IMG/VR virus record: IMGVR_UViG_3300026484_000001
Location: 1-64,000 of that record
DNA: 64,000 bases
Source: a virus
Reading direction: 5' to 3' (one strand)
In this document: positions 42,414-63,214 of the stretch, piece after piece
How the letters are laid out: every line of letters begins with the position of its first letter
Numbering within the stretch: position 1 is the first letter of the stretch
Program-made: the position numbers and the translations under genes
Notes under the pieces: generated by a model
Told to the model about the DNA's origin: nothing
Databases searched by the model: none
What the model saw: only the letters and a program-made list of their open reading frames with translations

Positions 42414-42644
42414 TTGTTCAACTTATCAAATACTCTAATCACAAACACTGCTACATCGACTGGTATTGTAGCAGCACTTCTTCTAGCATTAAACATCAAT
42501 ATGTTCTTAGTAGCATACTGTCTGTTTCTTGCGTCTTCTATCCTATGGGCAATTTTCGCTCATAGAACTCAAAATAGACAACTTCTTATAATGAATGTAG
42601 TTTTTTCAGTAATTAACACTATCGGTGTTTATAACTTCTCTTAA
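42414..42644 (+). CDS. Small membrane protein with three hydrophobic segments, 76 aa
   Basis: TTG start behind AAAGG in the conserved leader. Hydrophobic stretches at about 14-30, 32-48 and 55-72 indicate an integral membrane protein. The pattern ('ALLLALNINMFLVAYCLFLA') is like half-size transporters of the PnuC/YgjV kind encoded by some phages. Substrate unknown. It is expressed from its own double-box promoter. Confidence 0.65.
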   Translation: MFNLSNTLITNTATSTGIVAALLLALNINMFLVAYCLFLASSILWAIFAHRTQNRQLLIMNVVFSVINTIGVYNFS

Positions 42645-50611: not shown

Positions 50612-50789
50612 GGGATTTACTCTCATGGAGCTCGTATTCATAATTATTATTTTTGGAATTTTGTCTGCTGTGGCACTTCCTAAAATGAAACAAGCTGAAC
50701 TCGATAAACAAAAAAAGGTACAGACTGAGAAATTGAAACAGTCTGGAACAACTTTCGGGAGTGGTGGAAGCACCTCTTTCTCAAACTAA
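50586..50789 (+). CDS. Prepilin-like protein (type IV pilin N-terminus only), 67 aa
   Basis: The start is a type IV prepilin signature: short basic leader ending in Gly, then F-T-L-M-E-L ('KVNKG|FTLMELVFIIIIFG'), with Phe+1 and Glu+5 as required by prepilin peptidase and pilin assembly. The hydrophobic helix runs to 'ALPKM'. The mature part would be about 57 aa and ends in a Ser/Gly tail; the globular head of a normal pilin (total 120-160 aa) is missing. It could be processed by host PilD-like peptidase and enter or block host pilus/secretion machinery. No strong ribosome site; coupled to the gene before. Confidence 0.72.
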   Translation: MMNSTKVNKGFTLMELVFIIIIFGILSAVALPKMKQAELDKQKKVQTEKLKQSGTTFGSGGSTSFSN

Positions 50790-50803
50790 AATAAGGCTAC
50801 ACA

Positions 50804-51676
50804 ATGAAAAAAATGATTAAATCGGCGATCTTCGCTACACTTATGGGATTTATGGCACTAACAACAACTGGTTGTTCTGAAAAGGTTGAACCTGCACACA
50901 AGGGTATCAAATTAACATCAAGTGGATATGAAGCTGAAATCTACCCTCCTTCAAGAGTTTATGTGGGTTGGAGAGAAACTCTGATTCAGATTGAAACACA
51001 TACATCTGCGGCAAGTGAGCAAATCACAATTCGTACTAAGGATAAAATGAACCTTAATGCTGAAATTAAATTCCGCTTAAGAGTTGATGGTGATGATGCC
51101 ACAATTCGTTCAATGTTCAATGATATCACTCCTGCTGATAATATGGTGACACTGAAATCTGTGTACTTGACATACGGTAAGATGATCGTAAACAATGTGA
51201 CTCGTGGTGTAATTGGTAAGTATGATATTGAAGATGTACAACCAAACTTCAACCGCATTAACAAAGAAATTTATGGTGAAATTCAAGCGAAGTTCAAAAA
51301 CATTCCACTAGAAATTAGTGATGTTGCACTTGGAAAACTGGATTATCCTGAAGTAATTGACAAAGCAATTCTTGCTGCGGCACAAAAAACACTTGAGATT
51401 TCAAAGGCTGAGGCTGAAGTTCAAGTTGAGCTTACTAGAATTGAAGGAAAAAAACAAGTTGCGTCTGCGAAGTATGACATCAAGATGTTAGAAGCGAAAA
51501 GAATTCGTGACTATAACATTATGATTGGGAAGGGTATTACACCAGCATTGCTTAAGCTTCGTGAGTTAGAAGTTCAAGAAACTATGGCTGAAAATATCTC
51601 AAAAGGTGACCAGATTTATATCCCATGGGGAGCAATGGGTTCAACCGGAGTTAGCAACAGAGTGTTCGGAAAGTAA
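50804..51676 (+). CDS. SPFH/band-7-type lipoprotein, 290 aa
   Basis: Signal peptide with lipobox ('FMALTTTGC', Cys at about residue 24). Then an SPFH-like domain ('IRTKDKMNLNAEIKFRLRVD', 'ITPADNMVTLKSVYLTYGKM') and a long coiled-coil region with 'ILAAAQKTLEISKAEAEVQV' typical of prohibitin/stomatin proteins. Such proteins form large rings on membranes. Being lipid-anchored rather than transmembrane is unusual. The gene ends the membrane trio. Confidence 0.75.
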   Translation: MKKMIKSAIFATLMGFMALTTTGCSEKVEPAHKGIKLTSSGYEAEIYPPSRVYVGWRETLIQIETHTSAASEQITIRTKDKMNLNAEIKFRLRVDGDDATIRSMFNDITPADNMVTLKSVYLTYGKMIVNNVTRGVIGKYDIEDVQPNFNRINKEIYGEIQAKFKNIPLEISDVALGKLDYPEVIDKAILAAAQKTLEISKAEAEVQVELTRIEGKKQVASAKYDIKMLEAKRIRDYNIMIGKGITPALLKLRELEVQETMAENISKGDQIYIPWGAMGSTGVSNRVFGK

Positions 51677-51695
51677 CACACTGCTTGTGCTTTTA

Positions 51696-51718
51696 GAGCC
51701 ACTACTCTTTAGTGGCTC
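51696..51718 (+). terminator. Strong hairpin terminator
   Basis: GAGCCACTA / TAGTGGCTC, perfect 9-bp stem with 5-nt loop, 20 nt after the SPFH stop. The next unit begins with a late-type element at 51759. Confidence 0.65.
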
Positions 51719-51758
51719 AATTGAGTACAACTTGAAAAATTGTATGACCAATTTTGAC

Positions 51759-51767
51759 TTAAATATC
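51759..51767 (+). promoter_or_regulatory. Late-promoter-like element TTAAATATC before nrdB
   Basis: Lies 29 nt before the ATG at 51797. A late-type site ahead of a nucleotide-metabolism gene is unexpected; it may be chance. Confidence 0.35.
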
Positions 51768-51796
51768 AGTCAACACGCAAAATAAAAGGAAAATAA

Positions 51797-52810
51797 ATGA
51801 ATAAAAGCTCTGATAAATTACCGATAGAAACTCCGAGTTTATTTGGCGACTATCAATATCCTGAAGCAAATGAGATCCGTAAAAAACAACAAGATATTTT
51901 TTGGACTGAACAAGAAATTCCAGTCGAAAAAGATATTCATGACTTTAGACATAATATGTCAAGGGCTCAATTTGGTCTTTCTAGTATCACACTAGACCTT
52001 TTTGTCGAAATTGAACAAAAAGTTGGCGATGTGTGGGAGACTATTGAAAGATGGTTCCCACACTCCGAAATACAAGGTGCATGTTCAGCAATTGCATCTA
52101 TGGAAAAAGCAGTTCATGCATTTTTCTATCAGAAAATGTCTGATGAGATGAACATCGACCCTGAAACTACTGCTGAAAATCAACAAACCATCCAAGTTCT
52201 AAAGAGTAAACTCGGAATGCTAAATGCAATTACATCAAACCTTGATGAAGATAAGGCTCTTTCACTGGCTACTGTTGCGATGATTGAACAAGTTCTTTTA
52301 TTCAGTAACTTTGCTATGCTTAAGTCATTTCAAGCTAATGGGCACAATTTAATCACAAACACAATCACTGGTGTTGATTTTGTTGTTCAAGATGAAACAC
52401 TTCATGGGGTTTTTGCTGCATACTTACACAATACATATATTTCTGAGCATAAGGGGAACTTTCCGGTTGAAGCTCACGAAGCTAATGTACATAATGTAGT
52501 TCGCGAAATTATTGCACATGAGGATGCAGTCATTGACTTCGTTTACAAAGGCGAAGATGAGATCAATGATATCACACCAGACCAAATTAAAGCATTTATC
52601 CGTTCGAGAGCAGATCTAACACTTGATGGTTTGGGTTGTGAAGAACTTTATGACATTCAATTTGATCCAATTTCAGAATGGTTTTACAAAGGTGCGAATT
52701 CAATTAAGATGCATGACTTTTTTATCTCTGGGACTTCAAGTTACCGCAGAAGTTGGAAAACCAACAATCTTACAAGACTACCACACATGGAGAAAGCGAA
52801 TGAGCAGTAA
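51797..52810 (+). CDS. nrdB: Ribonucleotide reductase small subunit NrdB, 337 aa
   Basis: Supplies the radical for dNTP synthesis. Helix motifs are clear: helix with 'MIEQVLLFSNFAML' (Glu ligand), 'FVVQDETLHGVFAAYL' (D-E-x-x-H ligands), a helix B candidate Glu in 'FVEIEQ', and radical Tyr111 four residues after His107. The first E-x-x-H motif reads 'MEKAVHAFFY': at the Glu position before His107 stands Lys104, with Glu103 one residue too far. This is unusual for the di-iron/manganese site. The gene overlaps nrdA by 11 nt. Confidence 0.85.
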   Translation: MNKSSDKLPIETPSLFGDYQYPEANEIRKKQQDIFWTEQEIPVEKDIHDFRHNMSRAQFGLSSITLDLFVEIEQKVGDVWETIERWFPHSEIQGACSAIASMEKAVHAFFYQKMSDEMNIDPETTAENQQTIQVLKSKLGMLNAITSNLDEDKALSLATVAMIEQVLLFSNFAMLKSFQANGHNLITNTITGVDFVVQDETLHGVFAAYLHNTYISEHKGNFPVEAHEANVHNVVREIIAHEDAVIDFVYKGEDEINDITPDQIKAFIRSRADLTLDGLGCEELYDIQFDPISEWFYKGANSIKMHDFFISGTSSYRRSWKTNNLTRLPHMEKANEQ

Positions 52811-54545
52811 CACAAAATATGAAAAATTATCGCATAGACGAAAGTCTTTACAACAAGAAGGGTTGGCACCAGATTGGTTGACAACTGCTGGGTTCCAACT
52901 TTTAACGGAAAAAAACTATTTGAATACTGCTGAAACACCGCATGATATGTATACAAGAATTGCTGCTCGTGCTGCAGAGCTAACTGACTTTAGATTGCCT
53001 ATTGAATATGGGTACGATAACTGGCAAGAAGCATTTTATGATGTGATGTGGAAAGGTTGGGTGAGTCCGTCTACTCCAGTGCTAACAAATATGGGGAACG
53101 AAAGAGGTCACCCGATCTCATGTTCAGGAACTCATCTTGGTGACTCAATCCGTGAATGGTATATGGCTAGAACTGAGTTGGCTCAATTAACTCAGAGAGG
53201 TTATGGGACATCAACGGTTCTTGACCCAGTAAGACATCGCGGTTCACCAATTTCAAAAGGCGGTACTGCAAACGGTGTGATGCAACCAGCTGAGGGGATT
53301 GTTCAAGATATGAAAGATGTATCTCAAGGCTCAAGTCGTAGAGGTTCAGCGGGAATGTACCTGAATCCACTTCACGAGGATTTTGATGAAATTGCTGATC
53401 AAATTCTAGCTGACGACGATGGTTGGAATATCGGTTGGAATATCACTGATGAATTTGAGGCTCTTTTTGAAAAAGACCCACTTCGTGCTGACCACATTTG
53501 GAAAAAGATGCTTAAAATCAAGCTTATCAAAGGAAAGGGTTATTTCTTCTTTATTGATAAGGTAAATAGATCTAGACCCCAAATGTACAAAGATAGAGGT
53601 TTCTTTGTTAAGGGTTCAAACCTTTGTGCTGAGATTCAATTATTTCTTGACTCTGAAAACTCATTCACTTGTGTTTTAAGTTCAATGAATGTTGCGAAAT
53701 TCAATGAGTGGAAAGACACCAAGGCAGTTGAAATTGCAATGGTACTTCTTGATGCTATCATTAGTGACATGTTAATCAAAGCTAAAAAAGAGCCTGGATT
53801 TGAACGAGTTATTTCTTTCACTGAAAAATCAAGAGCAGTTGGTTTAGGGATACTTGGTGAAGCTACTTATTATCAGCAAGAAAGTTGGGTGTTTGGAGAC
53901 TTACAGTCAATTATGTTCAATCAGTCACTCGTAAAAATGCTTGATAAAAGAACTCTAGCGATTTCTAAAGCTTATGCATTTGAGTGTGGTTCACCTGAAT
54001 GGCTCGAGGGTTATGGTGAAAGATGGTCACATCGTATGGCATTCCCACCTACTATGTCAACATCAGTGATTCAAGGTGGAATCTCGCAAGGCATTGAGCC
54101 GACATTTGCAAATATCTATGAACAAGACACTGCTGGAGGTACGGTTTTCCGTATTAATCCGCCATTCTTGAAACTTATGAAAGATCGTGGCATGTACACA
54201 GTAGATGTTATGAAGCGAGTTGCTGAAGACCAAGGTTCAGTTCAGGCTGAAGAATGGTTGTCTGATCATGAGAAAGCTGTTTTCAAAACTGCGTTTGAAC
54301 AGAATCAACACACGATTCTTAAGATGTCAGGTGATAGACAACGAGAAATGAACAAAACTGGTGGAGGACAAGGGCAATCAACAAACTTGTATTTCCCGCA
54401 TGATGCTAAGGAAGAAGAGATTGCTGAACTTCACCACGAAGCATTTATTGATGAAGACATTGAAAGTTTGTACTACATCAGAACACTGAACGGTGCGACC
54501 AAAGTTAAAATTGATCGCTCTGAATGTGAGGGGTGTGAGGGATAA
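52800..54545 (+). CDS. nrdA: Ribonucleotide reductase large subunit NrdA, 581 aa
   Basis: The ATG at 52800 overlaps the nrdB end. Catalytic features: 'HPISCSGTHLGD' (first redox Cys), 'SNLCAEIQL' (Asn, Cys, Glu of the active site), 'SFTCVLSSMN' (second redox Cys), and a C-terminal C-x-x-C ('SECEGCEG') for electron transfer. The N-terminal ATP-cone of about 90 aa is missing, so overall allosteric inhibition by dATP is probably lost, as in several phage enzymes. 581 aa is shorter than typical NrdA (about 750). Confidence 0.92.
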   Translation: MSSNTKYEKLSHRRKSLQQEGLAPDWLTTAGFQLLTEKNYLNTAETPHDMYTRIAARAAELTDFRLPIEYGYDNWQEAFYDVMWKGWVSPSTPVLTNMGNERGHPISCSGTHLGDSIREWYMARTELAQLTQRGYGTSTVLDPVRHRGSPISKGGTANGVMQPAEGIVQDMKDVSQGSSRRGSAGMYLNPLHEDFDEIADQILADDDGWNIGWNITDEFEALFEKDPLRADHIWKKMLKIKLIKGKGYFFFIDKVNRSRPQMYKDRGFFVKGSNLCAEIQLFLDSENSFTCVLSSMNVAKFNEWKDTKAVEIAMVLLDAIISDMLIKAKKEPGFERVISFTEKSRAVGLGILGEATYYQQESWVFGDLQSIMFNQSLVKMLDKRTLAISKAYAFECGSPEWLEGYGERWSHRMAFPPTMSTSVIQGGISQGIEPTFANIYEQDTAGGTVFRINPPFLKLMKDRGMYTVDVMKRVAEDQGSVQAEEWLSDHEKAVFKTAFEQNQHTILKMSGDRQREMNKTGGGQGQSTNLYFPHDAKEEEIAELHHEAFIDEDIESLYYIRTLNGATKVKIDRSECEGCEG

Positions 54546-54557
54546 TCCTCACTTCCA

Positions 54558-54578
54558 AGGGAATTACTAAATTTCCCT
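54558..54578 (+). terminator. Hairpin after nrdA
   Basis: AGGGAA / TTCCCT with a 9-nt A/T loop, 13 nt after the nrdA stop and just upstream of the next promoter. Confidence 0.5.
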
Positions 54579-54590
54579 AAAAACTTCTCT

Positions 54591-54624
54591 TTTAAGCTTA
54601 CTCTAAGTGAATTTATGTTATAAT
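54591..54624 (+). promoter_or_regulatory. Double-box promoter
   Basis: TTTAAG (54591), TCTAAG (54602), TATAAT (54619), ATAGTATATC; leader AAAAAGGCTTAAA before the ATG. Confidence 0.8.
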
Positions 54625-54653
54625 ATAGTATATCAGAAGTAAAAAGGCTTAAA

Positions 54654-54926
54654 ATGATACTCTTCAAACCAAATGGTCAAACTATCGTTATCGAAGTTAC
54701 GAACCAACAAATCTCAAAAACACTTATGAATGAATTCCCAATGATCAAGAAAACTGGTTGTATAAAAAATGGTGAAATCTATATCGAACTTAAAAATCGT
54801 CGTACCGACTGTAAAGCTTCAGATAAAGAATTTGAAAACATTTTTGAAATGTTTCCTGAACTTTATCTTGAACATGCGGTTGACGGATTAAGCGGTTACG
54901 AATTTATACTAGCAAGGAGACCATAA
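54654..54926 (+). CDS. Hypothetical protein, 90 aa
   Basis: Follows the conserved leader. It is a small alpha/beta protein ('QTIVIEVTNQQISKTLMNEF' then 'GEIYIELKNRR'). The stop overlaps the next start. First gene of a run leading to dCMP deaminase; no family recognised. Confidence 0.62.
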   Translation: MILFKPNGQTIVIEVTNQQISKTLMNEFPMIKKTGCIKNGEIYIELKNRRTDCKASDKEFENIFEMFPELYLEHAVDGLSGYEFILARRP

Positions 54927-55150
54927 TGAATGATCAGATAGGTGGGTTCATTGGCAATATAAATATTGGAGATACTTACTATGCAGTTGGTCCACTTCAG
55001 GGTCCAGACGGCATCGAAGAGTGGAATTATAGTGCCGATCGATATGATTCCCTGAGAGCAGAGATCGGGAATATGTTCCCTGATAAAATCACGGCTTTAA
55101 AGTACAAATATTTACTATTGCAAATAAAAGGAATGACACATGGCTTATGA
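54926..55150 (+). CDS. Hypothetical protein, 74 aa
   Basis: Coupled by TAATG. Begins with a Gly/Asn-rich strand ('GGFIGNINIGDTYYAVGPLQ') and ends in a helix. Overlaps the next gene by 11 nt. Unknown function. Confidence 0.6.
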   Translation: MNDQIGGFIGNINIGDTYYAVGPLQGPDGIEEWNYSADRYDSLRAEIGNMFPDKITALKYKYLLLQIKGMTHGL

Positions 55151-55439
55151 TTTTACAGAAGAGTTAAAAAGTATGTTCGGGAAGTTTGGTGACACACCAA
55201 ATCCTGGATGCGGAAAATACGGACCACCTGAGCCGACATTTGAACTGAAAAATATTGACGATATTACGAATGCGGTATATACGATGGTTCGTGGTATGAC
55301 GGATGAACTGAAACTTAGGCCTACAACTGGCGGAAGATTTGCTATTTGCAACAAGAGCAAAGAGGTTATTCATAGTTCTGATGATGTTCAGGAAGCAAAA
55401 AGATTGTTAATTTTAATGGTGTTAGGAGAATACGAATGA
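55140..55439 (+). CDS. Hypothetical protein, 99 aa
   Basis: AAAGGAA site. Pro/Gly-rich start followed by helices and a small strand pair. ATGA overlap of 4 nt with the deaminase gene, so expression is coupled. No motif found. Confidence 0.6.
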   Translation: MAYDFTEELKSMFGKFGDTPNPGCGKYGPPEPTFELKNIDDITNAVYTMVRGMTDELKLRPTTGGRFAICNKSKEVIHSSDDVQEAKRLLILMVLGEYE

Positions 55440-56242
55440 AATTTAAAGAAATAGTGGTGGCTTGTAACCTCAAGTCAATAGTTCAAGGACAAGGTGAAAT
55501 GTCACATGGTGTAACTTTTAAGGTTCTTAGAGAAGCTGGTTTTGACATTAAGGCGGTCCAAGGGGCTGACCTCGTTGCCCTTACTGACCCGTCAGTTGAT
55601 GCCGTGCATGTTGTGAAATCAAGATTCGTTCAGGTGAGTGTACCTTATATTTCAAAAGCACACTTCAATGAAGTTCGCAATGAATCTATAATCAGATGGG
55701 AACAGAAGTTAGATGACGAAAACGGTGCTCCAGAAAATCCGAAAAATAAGTATGATAGAGTTCTGATGGACACTGCAATTGGCTTTTCAAAACTGTCAAA
55801 GTGTACTAGACTTAAGGTCGGTGCGGTTCCAGCTATTAATGGTCGACCATTAGCTACTGGATACAATGGTACTATTGCCGGAATGTCAAATGAATGTGAA
55901 ACTACTGAAAAATGTATTGAGTGTGCTGGGACCGGAATTGACCGTTCCGAAGCATATATTATGGAAAGAACAAAGGCTTGTACACACTGTAATGGAGTTG
56001 GAACAATCACTACTACAAGCCCATTCACAGTTCATGCTGAACAAAATGCCATATTCTATGCGGCAAAAAATGGTATTTCGCTTGATGGTGCCACTATGTA
56101 CATAACTCATGCCCCATGTTCTGAATGTTCTAAGGCTATGGTGTCAGCCGGAATAAAAAGGGTTGTGTTCAATGAGCACTACAGAGACCAAAAGGGTCTG
56201 GCATTCCTTGAACAATGTGGAATTGAAATTGACCATTTCTAA
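55436..56242 (+). CDS. dCMP deaminase-like with extra zinc motif, 268 aa
   Basis: The C-terminal domain has the deaminase zinc site: 'VHAEQNAIFYAA' and 'HAPCSECSKAMVSAGI'. It would convert dCMP to dUMP for dTTP synthesis, together with NrdAB. Inserted at about 160-190 is a DnaJ-like pair 'CIECAGTG' and 'CTHCNGVG' that can bind another zinc. The first 95 residues are an N-terminal extension not present in T4 Cd (193 aa). GGAG site. Confidence 0.82.
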   Translation: MKFKEIVVACNLKSIVQGQGEMSHGVTFKVLREAGFDIKAVQGADLVALTDPSVDAVHVVKSRFVQVSVPYISKAHFNEVRNESIIRWEQKLDDENGAPENPKNKYDRVLMDTAIGFSKLSKCTRLKVGAVPAINGRPLATGYNGTIAGMSNECETTEKCIECAGTGIDRSEAYIMERTKACTHCNGVGTITTTSPFTVHAEQNAIFYAAKNGISLDGATMYITHAPCSECSKAMVSAGIKRVVFNEHYRDQKGLAFLEQCGIEIDHF

Positions 56243-56276
56243 ACAAAACTTGGCTCGTGCTGCGTACTCACAAGAG

Positions 56277-56645
56277 ATGAATGCGCAAGAGTTCCTTCGT
56301 ACTATTTATGTGTTGATGATACGAAATATCAATAAGATAAAAAACATTGAAGAACACCGAAAAAGAGGGAAACTTCCGCTTCCAATGTTGAAGGAACAAG
56401 CTGAAATAGCATCTAAGCTACTTGAAGCAATAAGACAAGTGATTGGTGTGATTGATTTTGAAAAGGGTGGGGCTGAGGAATTGGCTTTGACTATGAATGA
56501 AATTGGTACTCTAGTGAGTCAAGCAATGGTGTTAAGTAGACCAGAAGCACTTGATAGTGCCCTGAGAATACTTCGCCGTGAAGTGGGTGCTCCTAAATCT
56601 ATCGCAATAGATTTAAAATCAGAGACTGAGACTCAAACGACTTAG
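56277..56645 (+). CDS. Helical protein, about 122 aa, overlapping the flagellin 3' end
   Basis: The same frame is open from 56163; an ATG at 56277 avoids a long overlap with the deaminase, but the start is uncertain (TTG 56250 is possible). The product is helical and charged. Its last 47 nt overlap the 3' end of the flagellin gene on the other strand, so its C-terminus may have been replaced when flagellin arrived. Function unknown. Confidence 0.5.
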   Translation: MNAQEFLRTIYVLMIRNINKIKNIEEHRKRGKLPLPMLKEQAEIASKLLEAIRQVIGVIDFEKGGAEELALTMNEIGTLVSQAMVLSRPEALDSALRILRREVGAPKSIAIDLKSETETQTT

Positions 56646-57423
56646 AAAGTGCAAAGGCATTTGCCTGTGCTTTCAGTGTATTCTTTTGTAGTCTCTCAGT
56701 TTCTGCCGCATAATCAACATCACGAATTTGTGACTCTGCTGCTTGCACATTTACTGCCGTTGCATCATTTACTCTAACTCTTGACTCCAATGCTGATTGC
56801 TTTGAACCTATTCCAGAACGGATTGTGTCTATTGCTTTAATTGCTGTATCGATATCAGCCAAAGCATCTGCTGCTCCGGAACCAGTTGTTAAATCTATAG
56901 ATGCATCATCTAATCCCTGAGAAGCGATATCAGTATTTGCGATTGACATAGACATAGTTTGACCTGAATACGCACCAACTTGGAAACTCTTATCTGTAAA
57001 AGTCCCGTCCAAAAGGCTTATGCCATTAAATGAAGTCGTTTTCGCAATTTGATCTGCTTGTTCCATAAGAGCCTTAACATCTGCCTCAAGTGCAGCACGA
57101 GCCTCTGGTGAATTCGTATCTGAAATTGCTTGTGATGCTTTATCTCTCGCAGTTACTAAAATCTTTTGATATTCATCCATGGCACCATCGGCTATTTTAA
57201 CAAGTGAAATTGCATCTGCTGCATTTTTATTGGCTTGTGTCAATCCTTGGTGTTGTGATCTTAATTGGTTAGCAATTGCTAATCCTGCTGAATCATCTGC
57301 CGCACGATTAATGCGAAGTCCAGTTGATAATTTTTCTAAAGACAAGTTCGCCTCGTGTTGAATTTGTTTCCCGTACATATTTGAAAATAGTGCGGATACA
57401 TTTGTATTAATTCTGAATGACAT
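56599..57423 (-). CDS. Flagellin, complete, 274 aa
   Basis: The only minus-strand gene in the window. It has the full N-terminal D0/D1 block ('MSFRINTNVSALFSN', 'SLEKLSTGLRINRAADDSAG' followed by 'LAIANQLRSQ') and C-terminal block ('VRVNDATAVNVQAAESQIRD', 'FALSKSFESQSLI', ending 'NLLR'). A short variable D2/D3 lies between. Both export/assembly ends are intact, so it could be secreted by the host flagellar apparatus and join the filament. AAGGAG site before the start. Length matches short Campylobacterota-type flagellins. Likely acquired from a host; may change filament antigen or phage receptor, or act on motility. Confidence 0.93.
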   Translation of the reverse strand: MSFRINTNVSALFSNMYGKQIQHEANLSLEKLSTGLRINRAADDSAGLAIANQLRSQHQGLTQANKNAADAISLVKIADGAMDEYQKILVTARDKASQAISDTNSPEARAALEADVKALMEQADQIAKTTSFNGISLLDGTFTDKSFQVGAYSGQTMSMSIANTDIASQGLDDASIDLTTGSGAADALADIDTAIKAIDTIRSGIGSKQSALESRVRVNDATAVNVQAAESQIRDVDYAAETERLQKNTLKAQANAFALSKSFESQSLILNLLR

Positions 57424-57452
57424 AATAGTCTCCTTGTTGTTATACTATATAG

Positions 57453-57476
57453 ATCGACTGAAATGATAATAACTTA
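57453..57476 (-). promoter_or_regulatory. Sigma28-like promoter candidate for flagellin
   Basis: On the minus strand TAAG is followed 16 nt later by CGATCT, 29 nt before the AAGGAG-ATG. The flagellar sigma28 consensus is TAAA-N15-GCCGATAA, so the core CGAT and near-correct spacing are present with mismatches. It lacks the double-box pattern of the phage promoters, so host control is possible. Confidence 0.4.
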
Positions 57477-57489
57477 AAAAACTTGATTT

Positions 57490-57506
57490 TTTAAGAACTC
57501 TTTAAG
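57490..57506 (+). promoter_or_regulatory. Orphan double box without a -10
   Basis: TTTAAG at 57490 and TTTAAG at 57501 have the 11-bp step of the middle class, but the -10 position (57518) reads AATGAG. It may be a decayed promoter, lost around the flagellin insertion. Confidence 0.35.
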
Positions 57507-57534
57507 GTGTCTTTAAAAATGAGTCGGAAACCAA

Positions 57535-57543
57535 TTAAATATT
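57535..57543 (+). promoter_or_regulatory. Late-promoter-like element TTAAATATT
   Basis: Lies 26 nt before the ATG at 57570, in the divergent gap with flagellin. Confidence 0.55.
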
Positions 57544-57569
57544 TCAAAGTTAAAAAAAAGGATACATTT

Positions 57570-58265
57570 ATGACAAGAACTGGGTTAATCGCTCGCAGAG
57601 CAACGAAAGATGTATTAATCGCAACACCACCAATTCAAGGCGAAATGGTATATGCATTAGATACAGGAGAACATGGATGGTTGAATAAAGTCAATCAACT
57701 TGTGTGGAAAGATTTGCTCGAGGAAGTCAGAAGTCTACCAGATGGCGGAACTGATGGGCAATATCCGGGAATTGACTCAAACGGAGATGTGAATTGGAAA
57801 GACTTCCCAACTGCTCCAGTCGTACCTTATTATATTGATGCGAATTTAGTACCATATTCGAATAGTGAGCAAGGCGGATTTTCCACTGAATTCAGTGTTC
57901 CTGAACATGCCTTCTCCGCGAAGATACAAATTACTTTCAATTTCGAGTTTGGTACATATGTTTCAAATAGCAATTTCGGGAAGATTGAACTCGGCTTAAC
58001 TATGGTTAAGAGTGAAAGTGGTGACGGATCTATTAGTGTTTTTAAAAAGACACACATACATTCTGATCTTTATTCTCCGAGCTCAATACAAGTCGATGAT
58101 GGTTCAGACATACTTATTGTGAGCTTAGATACAAACGGAGACTGGAAAATACAAGTGATGATAGATCATCCTGATTACCAAAATATTACCAGTACGAGTA
58201 TGAGTAGAGTGATATATGATGATGTGGTACAAAGTTTTGGTTTTTATACGACGGTACAAATTTAA
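57570..58265 (+). CDS. Virion-type protein with fibre-like N-terminus, 231 aa
   Basis: ATG with AAAGGA site. The N-terminal 60 residues ('GLIARRATKDVLIATPPIQG', 'EMVYALDTGEHGWLNKVNQL') resemble starts of phage fibre/adsorption proteins. The rest is beta-rich. The late-type promoter fits a virion role. It is coupled to a cupin gene by TAATG. Confidence 0.6.
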   Translation: MTRTGLIARRATKDVLIATPPIQGEMVYALDTGEHGWLNKVNQLVWKDLLEEVRSLPDGGTDGQYPGIDSNGDVNWKDFPTAPVVPYYIDANLVPYSNSEQGGFSTEFSVPEHAFSAKIQITFNFEFGTYVSNSNFGKIELGLTMVKSESGDGSISVFKKTHIHSDLYSPSSIQVDDGSDILIVSLDTNGDWKIQVMIDHPDYQNITSTSMSRVIYDDVVQSFGFYTTVQI

Positions 58266-58657
58266 TGATGTGTGATGTCAATACAAAAATCATTGGTAAT
58301 ATTTGGTTCAAAGAGATGATTTTTGAGCATTCTGGTGATGTAAAAAATGGGCATAAACATACTCACGACCATATCACCTTTGTCACAAATGGGTCCATAG
58401 AGGTGTTTGTGATACAAGATAAGGACACGAATATTTCAAAGGGAATTTTCAAAGCACCTTGTCAAATCAAAGTTCCGGCTGGGACTGCACACACCGTTGT
58501 TTCACTGGAAGATAATACGATCGCATATTGCCTGGAAGCAGTTAGAATAGATGATGAAATTATCACCACTGAATTTTCGAATTCGGAATGGACTGAACCG
58601 CAAATGAACGAAGTTGACCCACTTCTAAGTGAACATAAAATGCGAAAGGATAAATAA
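58265..58657 (+). CDS. Cupin-fold protein, 130 aa
   Basis: Start ATGATG (58265/58268) overlapping the stop of the gene before. The cupin pattern includes 'HKHTHDHITFVTNGSIEVFV' (metal-binding His cluster, G) and 'CQIKVPAGTAHTVVS' (second cupin box with P-A-G-x-x-H). Such small cupins act as sugar epimerase-like or sensor proteins; substrate unknown. Stop overlaps the next start. Confidence 0.72.
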   Translation: MMCDVNTKIIGNIWFKEMIFEHSGDVKNGHKHTHDHITFVTNGSIEVFVIQDKDTNISKGIFKAPCQIKVPAGTAHTVVSLEDNTIAYCLEAVRIDDEIITTEFSNSEWTEPQMNEVDPLLSEHKMRKDK

Positions 58658-58755
58658 TGTTAAAACAAATACTTGAAAAGCTTGTGGATTTAAATCCACA
58701 AGAAGAAGTTAATTGGAGCGGAGAACCGCATGCGAAATTAACCGGAGGTGGTTGA
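58657..58755 (+). CDS. Tagged micro-gene, 32 aa
   Basis: ATG overlaps the cupin stop (AAAGGA site). It encodes 'MLKQILEKLVDLNPQEEVNW' plus a short Gly tail. Its first 12 residues match the tag family seen in the operon at 42.7-48.1 kb. A 22-bp palindrome lies in the middle. Probably real, given the tight spacing on both sides. Confidence 0.5.
   Translation: MLKQILEKLVDLNPQEEVNWSGEPHAKLTGGG
58681..58702. repeat. 22-bp perfect palindrome inside the micro-gene
   Basis: CTTGTGGATTT followed by AAATCCACAAG, perfectly self-complementary with no loop. Long for chance. It could be an operator-like or regulatory site, or a remnant of a mobile element. Confidence 0.5.
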
Positions 58756-58757
58756 TA

Positions 58758-59300
58758 ATGATTAGACAAGCAATCGCAGAAGCTGCAAAAGGATTAGGGA
58801 GTTATGCTCTGAGGAGTACCGAATTTCTATCATATTTATATAAAGCGGATAATGAACTCGCTGAAGCAATTGAAAACTATGATCCGGATGGAATGGAAAG
58901 TAAAATTCTGTTGGTATTCGGTATCAAAGAAAAAATGTACATGGATGCAGTTTGGGCTCAAAAAGGGTTCGGGCCTCTAGCTTATAAAATAGCTATGACA
59001 ATGCAAGGTACATTAGCACCAAACTGGATGGAGTCTCAAGTTACTAAAGAGGCTCAGAATGTTTGGAAAGAGTTCTTCAATGGAAAGGGATCAAAAGATG
59101 TGAATCTCGAATTCATAGGTGTGAATAAAGATAATTACAGAGATTATTGGTATAGTTTGAAGAAGCCTCTGTCATTGAATAAAAACATAAAGGCTGATGA
59201 GAAATTCATTGGTAAAGATCCATATCAGGAACGAAGAGGTATCATGGATGAGCTCGCGGAATCTGTACTGAGAAGTTCAATGAGAGGGATATATACATGA
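58758..59300 (+). CDS. Tagged protein, 180 aa
   Basis: The ATG follows GGAGGTGG. It starts 'MIRQAIAEAAKGLG', the tag with I-A-E|A (an exact fit to the prohead protease rule). The body is helical with 'KYSLKKPLSLNKNIKADEKF'-like strands; function unknown. The next micro-ORF overlaps its stop. Confidence 0.65.
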   Translation: MIRQAIAEAAKGLGSYALRSTEFLSYLYKADNELAEAIENYDPDGMESKILLVFGIKEKMYMDAVWAQKGFGPLAYKIAMTMQGTLAPNWMESQVTKEAQNVWKEFFNGKGSKDVNLEFIGVNKDNYRDYWYSLKKPLSLNKNIKADEKFIGKDPYQERRGIMDELAESVLRSSMRGIYT

Positions 59301-59326
59301 TAAGAGAAATACTTGAAAGTTGTTAG
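59297..59326 (+). CDS. Tag-only micro-ORF, 9 aa
   Basis: ATG overlaps the previous stop (ATGA). It encodes only 'MIREILESC' before TAG. The sequence equals the tag without a body, and protein-like pieces in other frames follow. It looks like the start of a decayed gene. Confidence 0.35.
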   Translation: MIREILESC

Positions 59327-59493
59327 TGGAGTTTGCACCGAGTGACCAGATATCAAAGTCCCGCTTAAAAAGTACATAATAGATGTTGCTGAACTACTGG
59401 GCGACCAAGGTAGTAAATGTTGAATGTGTGGGAAATACAATGATATCAAAAACTAGAAGTCAAATTGATTATCTTGGGAATAAAGGTTTAAAA
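59327..59493 (+). pseudogene. Possible decayed gene between tag and glycosyltransferase
   Basis: No ORF covers this stretch with proper signals. Short frames read 'LVEFAPSDQISKSRLKST' and 'IIDVAELLGDQGSKC' in different frames, and a frame continuous with the next gene ('MLLNYWATKVVNVE') is open from 59383. This suggests one or two small frameshifts or stops in a former gene. Support is weak. Confidence 0.3.
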
Positions 59494-60162
59494 ATGATTA
59501 CAGTAATATATCCAGTTCTTGATGAAAGTTCAAGTGAGATTTTAAAAATCTCAATCAGATCACTGTGTAAACACTTAAAAGAAGACTTCAACATCATAAT
59601 TCACGGCCACAAACCTTCTTGGTACATAGGTGACCATAGCCCCAAAGGCTATAATATACACGGCAGGAGAAATATTTCACCATTCGGATATTTGGATGAA
59701 TATGATGAGTTTTTGTTGATGAATGATGATTTTATCGTATTGGAAGATGTTGACATAAATGGGTTTCAACCGAAGAAAGTTATGGTTGATGATTATTATC
59801 CTGGTTTCAGCTCACCTTTCAAACAATGGGTCATTAACTCTTGTATTCATTATAAAAGGTTGCTTGGCATAGAAGGTGATTTTACTTGGGAGTCACATGT
59901 TGGTAGGTGGTACGATAAGGAGTCACTTGAATTCATTAGAAAACAAGATAATGACTCATTTTTACATGACATAGCATTGCATATGTTTAAAGAAAGTCAG
60001 GGTCGCCTTGGCAATTGTGAGCGAATTCTAAATCCACTGAGTAAATTTGAAATATATGGGTTTGAGAAATATAGGTTCTTACATCTTCATCCTGCACTCC
60101 GTTCCGAAACAAACTTACTGATGATTGGAAAGAATTTCGAAAAATGTAAGTATGAACTATAG
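59494..60162 (+). CDS. Glycosyltransferase-like protein, 222 aa
   Basis: ATG with AAAGG. 'MITVIYPVLDESSSEILKIS' matches the N-terminal strand-helix of GT-A enzymes. 'YDEFLLMNDDFIVLEDVD' includes a D-D motif like the metal-binding D-x-D of glycosyltransferases. Later 'HVGRWYDKESL' and 'FLHDIALHMFKES' are helical. It would modify surface polysaccharide or a protein glycan. It is close to the flagellin gene, so flagellar or surface glycan change is possible but unproven. Confidence 0.62.
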   Translation: MITVIYPVLDESSSEILKISIRSLCKHLKEDFNIIIHGHKPSWYIGDHSPKGYNIHGRRNISPFGYLDEYDEFLLMNDDFIVLEDVDINGFQPKKVMVDDYYPGFSSPFKQWVINSCIHYKRLLGIEGDFTWESHVGRWYDKESLEFIRKQDNDSFLHDIALHMFKESQGRLGNCERILNPLSKFEIYGFEKYRFLHLHPALRSETNLLMIGKNFEKCKYEL

Positions 60163-60163
60163 A

Positions 60164-60197
60164 TTTAAGCTGACTTTAATCTTTATTATGGTATAAT
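60164..60197 (+). promoter_or_regulatory. Double-box promoter
   Basis: TTTAAG (60164), TTTAAT (60175), TATAAT (60192), ATAGTATAT; leader AAAGGCTTAAA before the ATG at 60224. Confidence 0.8.
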
Positions 60198-60223
60198 ATA
60201 GTATATTAACTGAAAGGCTTAAA

Positions 60224-60439
60224 ATGAACAACTTAATTAATAGGATCCAAACTCGTCCAGGTTACAAATATTTAGCTGTGATCGTGTCAGTAGTTGGGTT
60301 CTTTATGATTATGTCATATACTCAACCAGTGGTGGAAGTGGATGGAGATGATATGGTAGTGTCAGTAGATGGCAAACCTACATTTCGTCCTTTGATGAAT
60401 TGGGATCTTCGTGAAGCTAAAATCGTGAGAGTAAACTAA
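60224..60439 (+). CDS. Small single-pass membrane protein, 71 aa
   Basis: Conserved leader with AAAGG. A transmembrane segment lies at about 15-35 ('YLAVIVSVVGFFMIMSY') with a short cytoplasmic N-terminus. The C-terminal 35 residues are a small periplasmic-type beta domain ('VVEVDGDDMVVSVDGKPTF'). A typical size for superinfection-exclusion or host-takeover proteins; function unknown. Confidence 0.62.
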   Translation: MNNLINRIQTRPGYKYLAVIVSVVGFFMIMSYTQPVVEVDGDDMVVSVDGKPTFRPLMNWDLREAKIVRVN

Positions 60440-60443
60440 TTCT

Positions 60444-60518
60444 ATGAAACTTGACATTCTAGCAATTTTGGGTTCTGTTTTGGTAAAGCAGAAAAGTTAT
60501 AATTTAAGCAAGGTTTAA
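60444..60518 (+). CDS. Micro-ORF, 24 aa
   Basis: ATG at 60444, TAA at 60516, no clear ribosome site. Encodes a hydrophobic 'LDILAILGSVLVKQKS' peptide and overlaps the next promoter. Weak candidate; it fills an otherwise empty 120-nt gap. Confidence 0.25.
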   Translation: MKLDILAILGSVLVKQKSYNLSKV

Positions 60519-60536
60519 TCTTACTTATAGTATAAT
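60503..60536 (+). promoter_or_regulatory. Double-box promoter before the cytochrome operon
   Basis: TTTAAG (60503), TTTAAT (60514), TATAAT (60531). It drives the 70-aa ORF and cytochrome c. Confidence 0.78.
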
Positions 60537-60562
60537 ATGATATATTTTAACAAAGGGTGTGA

Positions 60563-60775
60563 ATGGCAAAAGTACAAAGATATCGTAAAGTTAAAATAAA
60601 TGTTACTCAGGTTGGCGGGTTTGAAATCGGCACTGAGAACAAGTGGGAAGTTGAGTTGATTTTTATTAAGTCAATGAAGCTTCCACAAATGAACATAACG
60701 GTTGATGGTGGTCTTGAATCAGAGGCTATATATGTCGGTCATCATTGGGTTGATGAATTACTTAAGGAAAGATAA
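60563..60775 (+). CDS. Hypothetical protein, 70 aa, paired with cytochrome c
   Basis: AAAGGG site. A small beta protein ('KINVTQVGGFEIGTENKWEV'), no signal peptide. The stop overlaps the cytochrome start (TAATG), so the two are made together. Unknown; could assist cytochrome function or be a separate host modulator. Confidence 0.6.
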   Translation: MAKVQRYRKVKINVTQVGGFEIGTENKWEVELIFIKSMKLPQMNITVDGGLESEAIYVGHHWVDELLKER

Positions 60776-61044
60776 TGAAAAAGGTTTTATTTCTGTTTGC
60801 ATTAGTGGCAGCACTTTATGCAGGCTCAACTGACAAATGTCTAGGTTGTCACGGGACACACTTTGAAAAAAGAGCTCTGGGACAGTCAGGGGTAGTTGCT
60901 GATATGAACACAACAGCAATCAAATATGCACTAAATGGGTACCAAAATGGTACATACGGTGGAAAAATGAAAGGGTTGATGGCTGCGCAAGTCAAAGATA
61001 CCAATGTTTCTGAGATTGTAACTGAAATAGTAAATTCTTTTTAA
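60775..61044 (+). CDS. c-type cytochrome, class I, 89 aa
   Basis: N-terminal signal peptide ('KKVLFLFALVAALYAG') for the periplasm. One heme site C-x-x-C-H ('CLGCHG') at about 23-27, then an axial Met region 'YGGKMKGLMAAQ', the order of small cytochrome c553-like carriers that are abundant in Campylobacterota. Complete, so it could be matured by the host Ccs system and carry electrons between complex III-type donors and terminal oxidases. An energy-related cargo gene in a phage; driven by a phage-type promoter. Confidence 0.88.
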   Translation: MKKVLFLFALVAALYAGSTDKCLGCHGTHFEKRALGQSGVVADMNTTAIKYALNGYQNGTYGGKMKGLMAAQVKDTNVSEIVTEIVNSF

Positions 61045-61045
61045 C

Positions 61046-61079
61046 TTTAAGTGGGCTTTAAGCTTATTTACAGTATAAT
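61046..61079 (+). promoter_or_regulatory. Double-box promoter before tRNA region
   Basis: TTTAAG (61046), TTTAAG (61057), TATAAT (61074). It overlaps the end of the cytochrome gene. A hairpin leader follows and then the small 43-aa gene and tRNA array. Confidence 0.78.
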
Positions 61080-61095
61080 AGGGTAACTTAAAAAT

Positions 61096-61120
61096 AAGTC
61101 TGAAAAAAGTTTTCGGATTT
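61096..61120 (+). terminator. Leader hairpin downstream of the promoter
   Basis: AAGTCTGAAAA / TTTTCGGATTT, 11 pairs including two G-U, loop AAG, starting 17 nt after the -10. It could act as an attenuator or mRNA stabiliser. Confidence 0.4.
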
Positions 61121-61154
61121 ATCTTTAAATCGTTAAAAATGATCTACTTCGTCA

Positions 61155-61163
61155 TTAAATAAA
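61155..61163 (+). promoter_or_regulatory. Late-promoter-like element TTAAATAAA
   Basis: Lies 28 nt before the ATG at 61192. Confidence 0.58.
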
Positions 61164-61191
61164 AGTATAAAAATCAAATAAGGAGTCAGCA

Positions 61192-61323
61192 ATGGCACAA
61201 GCAATATTTATAGCTTATCAACCGCAAGAACATATCGCCTTTGCTGGCGAAGCAATTGTTATACCTCAAATGGTGTGGCATGAAGCTGACATTCGCCCTT
61301 ATGGGATTGAACAAATTATCTAA
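61192..61323 (+). CDS. Small protein, 43 aa
   Basis: AGGAG site 7 nt before ATG 61192, stop TAA 61321. Sequence 'MAQAIFIAYQPQEHIAFAGE' then 'IVIPQMVWHEADIRPYGIEQ'; no membrane segment. It has both a double-box promoter and a late element upstream, and a terminator hairpin after it. Unrecognised. Confidence 0.6.
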   Translation: MAQAIFIAYQPQEHIAFAGEAIVIPQMVWHEADIRPYGIEQII

Positions 61324-61336
61324 GTAGTCCTTTCAG

Positions 61337-61360
61337 TCAAGGGCTTCTTTAAGTCCTTGA
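61337..61360 (+). terminator. Hairpin terminator
   Basis: TCAAGGGCTT / AAGTCCTTGA with one G-U pair and a CTTT loop, 13 nt after the 43-aa gene. Confidence 0.55.
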
Positions 61361-61527
61361 TTCTACGAAAAGACTCAAGAGTTTGCACACAGTAACCGAA
61401 TTAATCGGGCTGTCAGTGTATCAACTCGTCATTTTCCTCAAATCATATTCTTATAAGAAGCCTTGCCTACAATAGAACTATCTAGTTTTCCACGGTTTAG
61501 GGAATTCCGCTCAAAAATTCCAGGTAA
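61361..61527. other. Gap before the tRNA array
   Basis: No ORF with a ribosome site and no clear tRNA fold is seen here. Short segments resemble pieces of tRNA arms, but none folds fully. Confidence 0.5.
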
Positions 61528-61612
61528 TGGGTTTTCAAAGTCGTTCGGATACGGCAGCAAGACTGTAAATCTTGTCTCTAGGGGAGTGGTTCGAGTCCAC
61601 GGGAACCCACCA
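61528..61612 (+). tRNA. tRNA-Tyr(GTA)
   Basis: Acceptor TGGGTTT/GAACCCA, long variable arm (type II), anticodon loop CTGTAAA with GTA at 61565-61567, encoded CCA. Confidence 0.92.
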
Positions 61613-61618
61613 TTACAT

Positions 61619-61695
61619 CTGGATATAGCTCAGTTTGGGAGAGCACTTGCTTTGGGAGCAAGGGGTCGTAGGTTCAATCCCTACTATTCAGACCA
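61619..61695 (+). tRNA. tRNA-Pro(TGG)
   Basis: Acceptor CTGGATA/TATTCAG, anticodon loop TTTGGGA giving TGG, T-loop TTCAATC, CCA encoded. Confidence 0.9.
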
Positions 61696-61702
61696 TTTTT
61701 AT

Positions 61703-61776
61703 TGAGGTATAGTTCAACGGCAGAACATGCGACTTTGACTCGCATAATATAGGTTCGATCCCTATTACCTCATCCA
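61703..61776 (+). tRNA. tRNA-Gln(TTG)
   Basis: Acceptor TGAGGTA/TACCTCA, anticodon stem TGCGA/TCGCA with loop CTTTGAC, anticodon TTG, CCA encoded. Confidence 0.9.
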
Positions 61777-61777
61777 T

Positions 61778-61852
61778 CCTTGGGTAGCTCAATGGTAGAG
61801 CAGTCGGTTGATAACCGGAAGAATTGTGGTTCAATTCCACTCCTGAGGACCA
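61778..61852 (+). tRNA. tRNA-Ile(GAT)
   Basis: Acceptor CCTTGGG/CCTGAGG, anticodon loop TTGATAA (GAT), CCA encoded; starts 1 nt after the preceding CCA. Confidence 0.88.
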
Positions 61853-61862
61853 ATACTAATAT

Positions 61863-61937
61863 ACCACGGTCGTCTAATGGTTAGGACACCATACTTTCAA
61901 TTTGGTAACCGGAGTTCAATTCTCCGTCGTGGTACCA
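61863..61937 (+). tRNA. tRNA-Glu(TTC), copy 1
   Basis: Acceptor ACCACGG/TCGTGGT, anticodon loop CTTTCAA (TTC), one T-T mismatch in the anticodon stem, CCA encoded. Confidence 0.85.
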
Positions 61938-61947
61938 GAATTACAAT

Positions 61948-62023
61948 GGGGTGTTAGCTCATCTGGGAGAGCACTAGGTTTGCAACTTAGAGGTGCAGGG
62001 TTCGAGTCCCTGACACTCCACCA
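61948..62023 (+). tRNA. tRNA-Ala(TGC)
   Basis: Acceptor GGGGTGT/ACACTCC, anticodon loop TTTGCAA (TGC), T-loop TTCGAGT, CCA encoded. Confidence 0.92.
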
Positions 62024-62064
62024 ATTTATTATTCAGCATTCAGCCCATTAATAGTGGGTTAAAT

Positions 62065-62140
62065 GGTGAGTATAGTACAATGGTTAGTACGGAGGGTTGT
62101 GAACCTTCTAATTCCAGTTCAATTCTGGATACTCACACCA
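62065..62140 (+). tRNA. tRNA-His(GTG)
   Basis: Extra 5' G at 62065 (the G-1 of tRNA-His), acceptor GTGAGTA/TACTCAC, anticodon loop TTGTGAA (GTG), CCA encoded. Confidence 0.9.
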
Positions 62141-62141
62141 T

Positions 62142-62216
62142 GGCTCGGTCGTCTAATGGTTAGGACAACTGGTTTTCGACCAGTTAATCAGAGTTCAATT
62201 CTCTGTCGAGTCACCA
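62142..62216 (+). tRNA. tRNA-Glu(TTC), copy 2
   Basis: Acceptor GGCTCGG/TCGAGTC, anticodon stem ACTGG/CCAGT with loop TTTTCGA, anticodon TTC with G37 instead of A37, CCA encoded. It differs from copy 1 in most stems. Confidence 0.82.
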
Positions 62217-62237
62217 ATTTATTTATAAGGCTATGAC

Positions 62238-62435
62238 ATGAAAGATATGTATATGGAAGATGTTGGCAGTTTGTCAAGTGAAACATGTGATTTTATATCT
62301 GAAAAGCTGAAACAATTTAACACACGGCTGACTGATGAACAAGTTAAGGATCTCGTTGAGAACCAAATTTGGGACGCAGTTTTTGAAAAACTAGAAAACT
62401 TTTGTGACAATGATTACAGAAGTCAAATGGGATAA
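62238..62435 (+). CDS. Small acidic protein, 65 aa, possibly the front of a broken endonuclease
   Basis: ATG at 62238 with a weak AAGG site. It encodes a helical acidic peptide ending 'NDYRSQMG' at TAA. The frame after the TAA continues directly in endonuclease-like sequence ('GGNAEKQHRGGRSNGQ'), so this ORF may be the N-terminal part of a gene cut by a stop codon. Confidence 0.5.
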   Translation: MKDMYMEDVGSLSSETCDFISEKLKQFNTRLTDEQVKDLVENQIWDAVFEKLENFCDNDYRSQMG

Positions 62436-62817
62436 GGGGGTAATGCTGAAAAGCAACATCGTGGAGGAAGAAGTAACGGTCAATATGTTAATGACAGTTT
62501 CGGCGAAAAAGTATTTCTTCAATCTTCTTACGAACTATTATGTTCCGAGATACTGAACGAAATGGGCATATTATGGGTTAGACCAAAATCACTTCCATAT
62601 GAGATAGATGGTAAAAAGAGAAAATACTTCCCTGATTTTCTCCTAGTGGATTATGGTATCTATTTAGATCCCAAAAATGATTTTTTGATTAAAAAGATAT
62701 TCCTAAAATAAGAGCAGTAGAAGAACAAAATGATGTTTCCGTATTCATTTTATCGAAACAAAACATAACAACAGATTTCATGGCGAGTATCATAATGGCT
62801 AATGACACCACCTCATA
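62436..62817 (+). pseudogene. Broken endonuclease-like gene between tRNAs
   Basis: In the frame of the 65-aa ORF, after its TAA, the sequence reads like a tRNA-associated or homing nuclease: 'GEKVFLQSSYELLCSEIL', 'PYEIDGKKRKYFPDFLLVDY' (P-D-F core of a PD-x-K-like nuclease), to a TAA at 62709. A one-base shift in an A run (62691-62695) restores 'DIPKIRAVEEQNDVSVFILS'. A frame stop and a frameshift suggest decay. The 3' end overlaps the next tRNA. Confidence 0.6.
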
Positions 62818-62856
62818 AGTGGTTCTATGCTGGTTCAAATCCAGTCTCGCCAACCA
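62781..62856 (+). tRNA. tRNA with CAT anticodon (Met or Ile2)
   Basis: Acceptor TGGCGAG/CTCGCCA, anticodon stem ACCAC/GTGGT, loop CTCATAA (CAT), T-loop TTCAAAT, CCA encoded. Whether C34 is modified to read Ile (AUA) cannot be seen. Confidence 0.88.
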
Positions 62857-62872
62857 AACCAAAAACAAACAT

Positions 62873-62943
62873 GCCAACCGATCAGGGATCAGTCAGTGCT
62901 CATAACACAGACCAGCTTAGATCGTTACTAAGGGTTGGCACCA
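62873..62943 (+). tRNA. Aberrant tRNA-like gene with CAT anticodon
   Basis: Acceptor GCCAACC/GGTTGGC and encoded CCA are perfect. The anticodon loop is CTCATAA with an A-A mismatch in the stem. Only 14 nt serve as D-arm (GATC/GATC with a 3-nt loop), and the T-loop is ATCGTTA, lacking TTC. 71 nt. Either a functional odd tRNA or a decaying one. Confidence 0.55.
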
Positions 62944-62946
62944 AAT

Positions 62947-63020
62947 GCGGACATAGTATAAAGGGATTATGGCGGTCTTCCAAACCGTGGATGCGAGTTC
63001 GAGCCTCGCTGTCCGCTCCA
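62947..63020 (+). tRNA. tRNA-Gly(TCC)
   Basis: Acceptor GCGGACA/TGTCCGC, anticodon loop CTTCCAA (TCC), T-loop TTCGAGC, CCA encoded. Confidence 0.92.
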
Positions 63021-63025
63021 AACAT

Positions 63026-63100: not shown

Positions 63101-63114
63101 AACACAACAAACAT

Positions 63115-63190: not shown

Positions 63191-63214
63191 TATTTTAATT
63201 ATAAAGGAATTATC

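Follow-up and report, generated by a model that had tools for sequence, protein, structure and literature searches.

A flagellin of old phage lineage, convergent with a probable FliS-like chaperone gene, in apparently virulent T4-like phages

We analysed a stretch of 64,000 bases of viral DNA, hereafter the window, which represents bases 1-64000 of the 154,998-bp (∼155 kb) virus record IMGVR_UViG_3300026484_000001. It contains a complete flagellin gene which, judged by its phylogeny and its pattern of substitutions, represents a phage lineage of long standing rather than a passenger. This gene converges on another one whose product is predicted to be a flagellin export chaperone. We consider it slightly better than an even bet that the main function of the phage flagellin is to be exported and assembled into the host filament, which would in this way be taken over or renewed. 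Coordinates are collected in Table 1.

Table 1. Features of the flagellin locus of the window phage and of related viral loci
Feature	Sequence	Coordinates	Strand	Evidence or remarks
76-aa membrane protein	window	42414..42644	+	L003 homologue 59%, L086 homologue 61% identical
dCMP deaminase-type gene	window	55436..56242	+	PF00383, E 6.3e-21; directly upstream of the FliS-like gene
Predicted FliS-like gene	window	56250..56645	+	tentative TTG start at 56250, open frame from 56163; AlphaFold model and fold matches
Phage flagellin, 274 aa	window	56599..57423	-	ATG start; Pfam PF00669 and PF00700; minimal middle
RBS of flagellin, AAGGAG	window	57430..57435	-	6 bp ahead of the ATG; includes the sole GGA motif in the leader
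Predicted sigma-28 (FliA)-type promoter	window	57451..57477	-	TTAAGTTA-N11-GTCGATCT; 28-54 bp ahead of the flagellin ATG
Membrane protein homologue	L003	9558-9785		divergently beside the flagellin
FliS-like homologue	L003	10818-11177		30% identity over 83 aa
Membrane protein homologue	L086	7758-7994		divergently beside the flagellin
Flagellin, two exons	L086	8666-8797 and 10001-10693		continuous 274-aa flagellin when joined
Intron ORF	L086	8838-9710		HNH endonuclease-like by eye; no significant Pfam name
117-aa protein	L086	10760-11113		no known family
FlaG	L086	11107-11466		follows the flagellin; PF03646, E 7.6e-17 and 3.9e-15, above the curated cut-off
Spirochaete-type FlaB	L109	7995-8849		E 4e-106 to solved flagellins
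Membrane protein homologue	L116	6007-6228

The genome carrying this gene appears to be that of a virulent, T4-like phage. Within the window, tail sheath, tape measure and tail fibre genes lie at about 3-34 kb, Pfam searches revealed ribonucleotide reductase and dCMP deaminase genes, and 14 tRNA genes are clustered at 61529-63471, with tRNA-Glu(ttc) present twice. The remainder of the 155-kb record encodes a major head protein, a terminase, a prohead protease, UvsX, a UvsW-type helicase and a phage DNA polymerase. The initial annotation had placed the flagellin in a phage, antisense to its neighbours, and these surroundings, tail, nucleotide-metabolism and tRNA genes followed by T4-type genes in the rest of the record, agree with that description. 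A search of the window phage for a tyrosine integrase (PF00589) found none on this possibly incomplete contig; together with the T4-like replication genes, this led us to reject a temperate, lysogenic phage. The same phage was recovered a second time from the same sample, as an 18-kb contig (L002) identical at 100% over window positions 50707-64000 (13.3 kb). Its head protein has as closest catalogued relative that of Rhizobium phage RHph_TM39, at 38.7% identity, and the window phage therefore belongs to a poorly sampled group. The host, as for the two related phages described below, is probably a motile, sulfur-oxidising member of the Campylobacterota.

The flagellin gene had been described as complete, with both conserved ends and a short middle part. 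Pfam searches gave the same picture, since Flagellin_N (PF00669) is covered over profile positions 1-139 of 139 (E 4.9e-40), corresponding to a complete N-terminal D0/D1 region, and Flagellin_C (PF00700) over positions 2-86 of 86 (E 7.1e-15), corresponding to a complete C-terminal D0/D1 region. These complete regions support the proposal that the intact ends look exportable. Flagellin A/B subfamily models were the best NCBIfam models, and the residues invariant in the flagellin family are retained in the phage protein. It is also, as stated initially, the sole minus-strand gene of the 64-kb window, all other minus-strand ORFs of at least 100 aa overlapping plus-strand ORFs and being unconvincing as genes. 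Its 3′ end overlaps, tail-to-tail and by 47 bp, the plus-strand ORF ending at 56645; the ORF coordinates thus confirm that the gene is fitted into place.

Scans of viral contigs yielded two orthologues, one on the 146,525-bp contig of phage L003, which comes from the same sample as the window and has a flagellin 72% identical to that of the window, and one on a 21,585-bp contig from another sample (L086, 65% identity). All three proteins are 274 aa long, and with two further phages carrying orthologues of the same length, a chance origin of the window ORF can be set aside well beyond chance expectation. The carriers are themselves divergent, their other proteins being for the most part unrelated or some 25-40% identical. 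Around 16 recognisable proteins are common to L003 and the window phage; most of these pairs are 23-53% identical, and flagellin is by far the most similar of all. On the L086 contig two proteins are about 26% identical to proteins from the DNA-polymerase region of the window phage. In L003, the flagellin gene likewise opposes the neighbouring genes and converges on the next one. Close to it are found an NAD kinase-like gene (L003 12342-13097) and a gene with a poly(A) polymerase/CCA-adding head domain (13843-14874).

The initial annotation had called for a search against bacterial flagellins and phages, followed by a tree. Bacterial relatives were found with an alignment as query, the patterns built from the single protein being too specific to give any. 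The top ones were flagellins of Campylobacterota, mainly Sulfurimonas, and no bacterial flagellin was found above 49% identity over the full length. In a maximum-likelihood tree (LG+C20, 86 rows), the flagellins of the window phage, L003 and L086 formed a single clade (100/100) whose stem measures 1.09 changes per column. Most of the diversity surrounding this clade is from Campylobacterota; long branches meet there and leave its exact neighbour unsure. Pairwise comparisons within the trio gave dN values of 0.27-0.32 and dS values of 1.1-1.9, the latter near saturation, hence dN/dS ratios of about 0.15-0.25; the corresponding pN and pS were 0.22-0.26 and 0.57-0.69. Such ratios indicate purifying selection, and consequently a flagellin that is functional. 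The long-stemmed clade of its own, the low dN/dS, the limit of 49% identity to bacterial flagellins and the divergence of the carrier phages are what make this an old phage lineage. Of the earlier proposal that the flagellin is an acquired cargo gene, the antisense placement stands, but not the idea of a recent stray cargo.

We turn to the gene on which the flagellin converges. Its tentative TTG start follows closely the end of the dCMP deaminase-type gene at 56242, which places it in a run of phage nucleotide-metabolism genes. A homologue occupies the same convergent place in L003, so that the linkage to flagellin is seen in two phages which otherwise share little synteny. AlphaFold, run on a two-sequence alignment, predicted a helical protein at good confidence, with a pLDDT of 82 for the window protein and of 86 for that of L003. 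Among PDB entries, the ten that best matched the window model were all FliS, with TM scores (by target) up to 0.85 and an rmsd of about 1.8 Å for most of them; first came the complex of FliS and flagellin from H. pylori (E 3.8e-3, TM by target 0.83, 1.8 Å). For the L003 model, FliS was among the best folds, but designed four-helix bundles scored alike. Sequence searches found no FliS match: the family PF02561 was absent from the Pfam search of this gene, even at E up to 10, as well as from the family search; our own HMM and hhalign comparisons with FliS were not significant; and with a profile of ten Campylobacterota FliS, the window gene ranked 3rd of 492 phage ORFs at a non-significant E of 0.78. 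A search of viral contigs for FliS-like proteins recovered only the same phage, and none was found in a viral fold library. The assignment is thus carried by fold and synteny, and on the strength of the predicted fold and position of two sequences we regard a FliS-like flagellin export chaperone as the probable product. The overlapped neighbour, initially described simply as a phage gene, is indeed phage-borne, but is itself probably flagellar.

Control signals upstream of the flagellin were then compared with those of bacteria. A sigma-28 matrix with an 11-bp spacer was built from the sequences preceding 88 bacterial flagellin genes (Campylobacterota promoters). Over both strands of the 155-kb genome, the site preceding the window flagellin ranked 1st of 309,934 with the full matrix and 3rd of 309,942 with the core matrix. 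Its core score was 15.1, for a bacterial minimum of 12.0 and median of 21.5, and the chance of finding a top-three site at most 200 bp upstream of the flagellin and in the right direction is about two in a thousand. The predicted site of L086, TAAAGTTT-N11-GTCGCGAT, ranked third of about 39,900, with a score of 12.1. No convincing sigma-28 site with the right spacing was found for the L003 flagellin with either the full or the core matrix. The leaders of L003 and L086 each contain, about 40 nt before the start (-39/-40), a hairpin with a GGA hexaloop, CCTC-AAGGAA-GAGG and TTCTC-AAGGAT-GAGAA respectively. Such CsrA-type hairpins are present in 41 of the 88 bacterial flagellin leaders, for a background of 0.003-0.005 per 100 nt in these phage genomes, and in the C. 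jejuni flaA leader such loops are bound by CsrA under FliW control and regulate flaA (PMC4894983). The leader of the window flagellin showed neither an ARGGAN hexaloop hairpin of this type nor any stable structure. As read from the three leaders, flagellin control is not uniform across the trio, L003 being without sigma-28 site and the window phage without CsrA hairpin. The T4 late promoter TATAAATA was not seen in the window flagellin leader. The L003 record (146,525 bp) has 29 copies of this motif on its main coding strand against 8 on the opposite one, the kind of bias that use of a T4-type late promoter would predict.

The L086 locus differs by an interruption of the flagellin after codon 44 (RINRAADD), in the most conserved stretch of the protein (RAADD|AAG). 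Within the 1,203-nt insert, Rfam recognises a group I intron (RF00028, E 2.2e-14), which is preceded by a U and ends in G, as group I introns need. Group I introns are known from flagellin genes of thermophilic Bacillus (PMC3984707). Between the flagellin and FlaG of L086 lies a gene for a protein of 117 aa, perhaps a third flagellar gene. A small membrane protein shared by these T4-like phages (73-78 aa, 57-68% identity) was tried as a member of a flagellin module, given its position in L003 and L086, and was rejected; its gene is unlinked to flagellin in the window, and occurs also on contigs without flagellin. This distribution makes it no more than a marker for these phages.

A broader scan of viral contigs detected, on the 329-kb contig IMGVR_UViG_3300010167_000010 (L109), a spirochaete-type FlaB matching the named FlaB1 entry 6pwb at 4e-88. 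A homing endonuclease gene adjoins it, phage GroEL and HSP20-like genes are near, and the contig also encodes a phage DnaB-type helicase. Its sequence and surroundings point to an independent capture by a jumbo phage, with a spirochaete as probable host. Spirochaete flagella lie in the periplasm, and no phage can use them as an exposed receptor. Other flagellin-like ORFs were noticed along the way: one at L110:7995-8768, others on contigs from isolates, an unannotated flagellin in Bacillus phage EZ-2018a (CP027117.1, 73673-74575), and unannotated ORFs in MT835518, MT835713 and other viral or phage records. Some of these further ORFs may be bacterial contamination. The PHROG families 16088 and 28924, of "unknown function", also match flagellins.

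Under the reading that we prefer, export and assembly, the host sigma-28 polymerase would transcribe the phage flagellin while the host builds or mends its filament. The FliS-like protein, produced from the plus-strand genes of the phage itself, would guard the flagellin C-terminus and pass the subunit to the flagellar export gate, after which the subunit would polymerise on the host filament or mix into it. The infected cell would gain a phage-specified or phage-renewed filament despite the shutdown of host expression. The likeliest benefit, by analogy with phage photosystem genes, would be to keep up swimming or chemotaxis until lysis; a filament surface changed against competing flagellotropic phages would rank second. 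No phage-encoded CsrA and no phage-encoded FliW were found in our searches, which, as they gave no TnpB/TldR either, turned up nothing by which the phage would repress host flagellin; a takeover would therefore have to proceed by competition. As a counterpoint to renewal, new flagellin may matter little in the short time that precedes lysis. Masking of the receptor or blocking of flagellotropic phages, suggested by the initial annotation, is speculative. It is made doubtful by the Enterobacter FliCP, for which such a role was not found (PMC13418256), and by L109, where it cannot be the purpose if the host is a spirochaete with its filaments in the periplasm.

Two other readings keep the flagellin at work on the host cell. 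The phage protein could act in the cytoplasm as a regulatory decoy on the FliW-CsrA switch, helped in L003 and L086 by the mRNA leader, with assembly secondary: flagellin would bind FliW and free CsrA, which would silence translation of host flagellin and other targets, and the cell would be redirected. FliW does antagonise CsrA in C. jejuni, where the flaA leader itself titrates CsrA (PMC4894983), the AAGGAA and AAGGAT hexaloops of the two phage leaders would fit, and the window message, having no hairpin, could escape the silencing that it would cause. But conservation extends to the whole protein, including the N-terminal D0/D1 region of export and assembly that a FliW decoy would not need, and both the FliS-like partner and FlaG indicate export, so that we hold a decoy to be unlikely. 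We find it quite unlikely that the phage subunit instead poisons the filament, by capping, weakening or changing it until the infected cell stops swimming or sheds it, with energy saved or newcomers kept off as the benefit. With no more than 49% identity to host flagellins, it is divergent enough to upset the packing of mixed filaments, but the family-invariant residues are kept, and strong full-length purifying selection suits a working filament subunit better.

The remaining explanations take the gene away from the host filament. That the flagellin fold serves in the phage tail or fibre recalls a "putative flagellin-like protein" mentioned beside tail proteins in a paper on gut phages (PMC10607447), but here the gene is outside the structural genes, on the opposite strand, with a predicted sigma-28 promoter and a FliS-like neighbour, and in L086 the flagellin is followed by FlaG; a part of the virion is in our opinion very improbable. 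Least credible of all is a recently picked-up host gene without function, or an assembly chimera. Phages do acquire host genes, and the window phage and L003 share a sample, but this explanation is already largely refuted: the gene is present in three phages from two samples, as a distinct clade with a dN/dS well below 1, a conserved neighbour, and no more than 49% identity to bacterial flagellins. Orthologues, tree and dN/dS led us to rule out both passenger and chimera.

Export and assembly can be extended to a more general proposal, to which we give a little less than an even chance: virulent T4-like phages would carry a dedicated filament module, composed of flagellin, a FliS-type chaperone and once FlaG, read from host flagellar promoters and taking over or renewing the propeller. 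In the literature searched, characterised phage-encoded flagellin is so far confined to temperate Enterobacter-type prophages with TldR (PMC13418256), and nothing further on phage-encoded flagellins was found in the open literature, subscription journals lying mostly outside that search. If true, the proposal would add a second, independently evolved case of flagellar remodelling by phages, within the lytic cycle and without an RNA-guided repressor, and with the flagellin of the L109 jumbo phage (probable spirochaete host) and others, it would become a recurrent phage strategy. A conserved flagellin and its likely chaperone in lytic T4-like phages would mean that controlling the filament pays even when the cell is near death. 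The question is then raised whether virulent phages steer or maintain the swimming of bacteria that position themselves in chemical gradients, and the FliS-like gene and the promoter are clear experimental handles.

Compared to known systems, the phage proteins resemble most the Campylobacterota flagellins of FlaA/FlaB type (Sulfurimonas and relatives) in their D0/D1 architecture and in length, which in these bacteria is mostly 270-280 aa. Like them, the window phage and L086 have a predicted sigma-28-type promoter, and L003 and L086 a CsrA-type leader hairpin, but the phage flagellins are at most 49% identical to them and stand in their own long-stemmed clade. The chaperone candidate resembles FliS of H. 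pylori (3iqc, 3k1i, 6lea) and B. subtilis (6gow) in its predicted helical-bundle fold, with TM scores (target) mostly of 0.81-0.85, in its size of about 120-131 aa and in its link to flagellin; it differs in having no significant sequence match to the family and a longer loop joining its first and second long helices.

The photosystem genes of cyanophages derive from the host and stand in for a worn-out part of it during infection. They are, likewise, host-type genes under purifying selection in virulent T4-like phages, but flagellin is an extracellular part of motility, and not of metabolism.

The nearest precedent is that of the temperate Enterobacter phages (FRφ) described by Walker et al., which carry the flagellin FliCP and the RNA-guided repressor TldR (PMC13418256). 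FliCP, which its authors present as the first prophage-encoded flagellin known, takes the place of host flagellin in the filament and increases motility; a role in phage resistance was looked for and not found (PMC13418256). A search for TnpB/TldR (PF07282) in the window phage, L003, L086 and L109 records found none, on contigs that are perhaps incomplete and by a search that a strongly diverged TldR could escape; remodelling of the TldR type was rejected on this basis. In both systems a phage encodes a flagellin divergent from that of its host, with filament replacement shown for FRφ and proposed here. FRφ are temperate and siphovirus-like, with TldR and a flagellin bearing large outer domains, whereas the present phages are T4-like myophages in which neither integrase nor TnpB/TldR was detected; their host is probably one of the Campylobacterota, and they combine a minimal flagellin of 274 aa with a FliS-like partner and, in L086, FlaG. 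They would be a case of phage flagellin remodelling in kind but are not members of the TldR-FliCP system, and their origin looks independent of that of FRφ.
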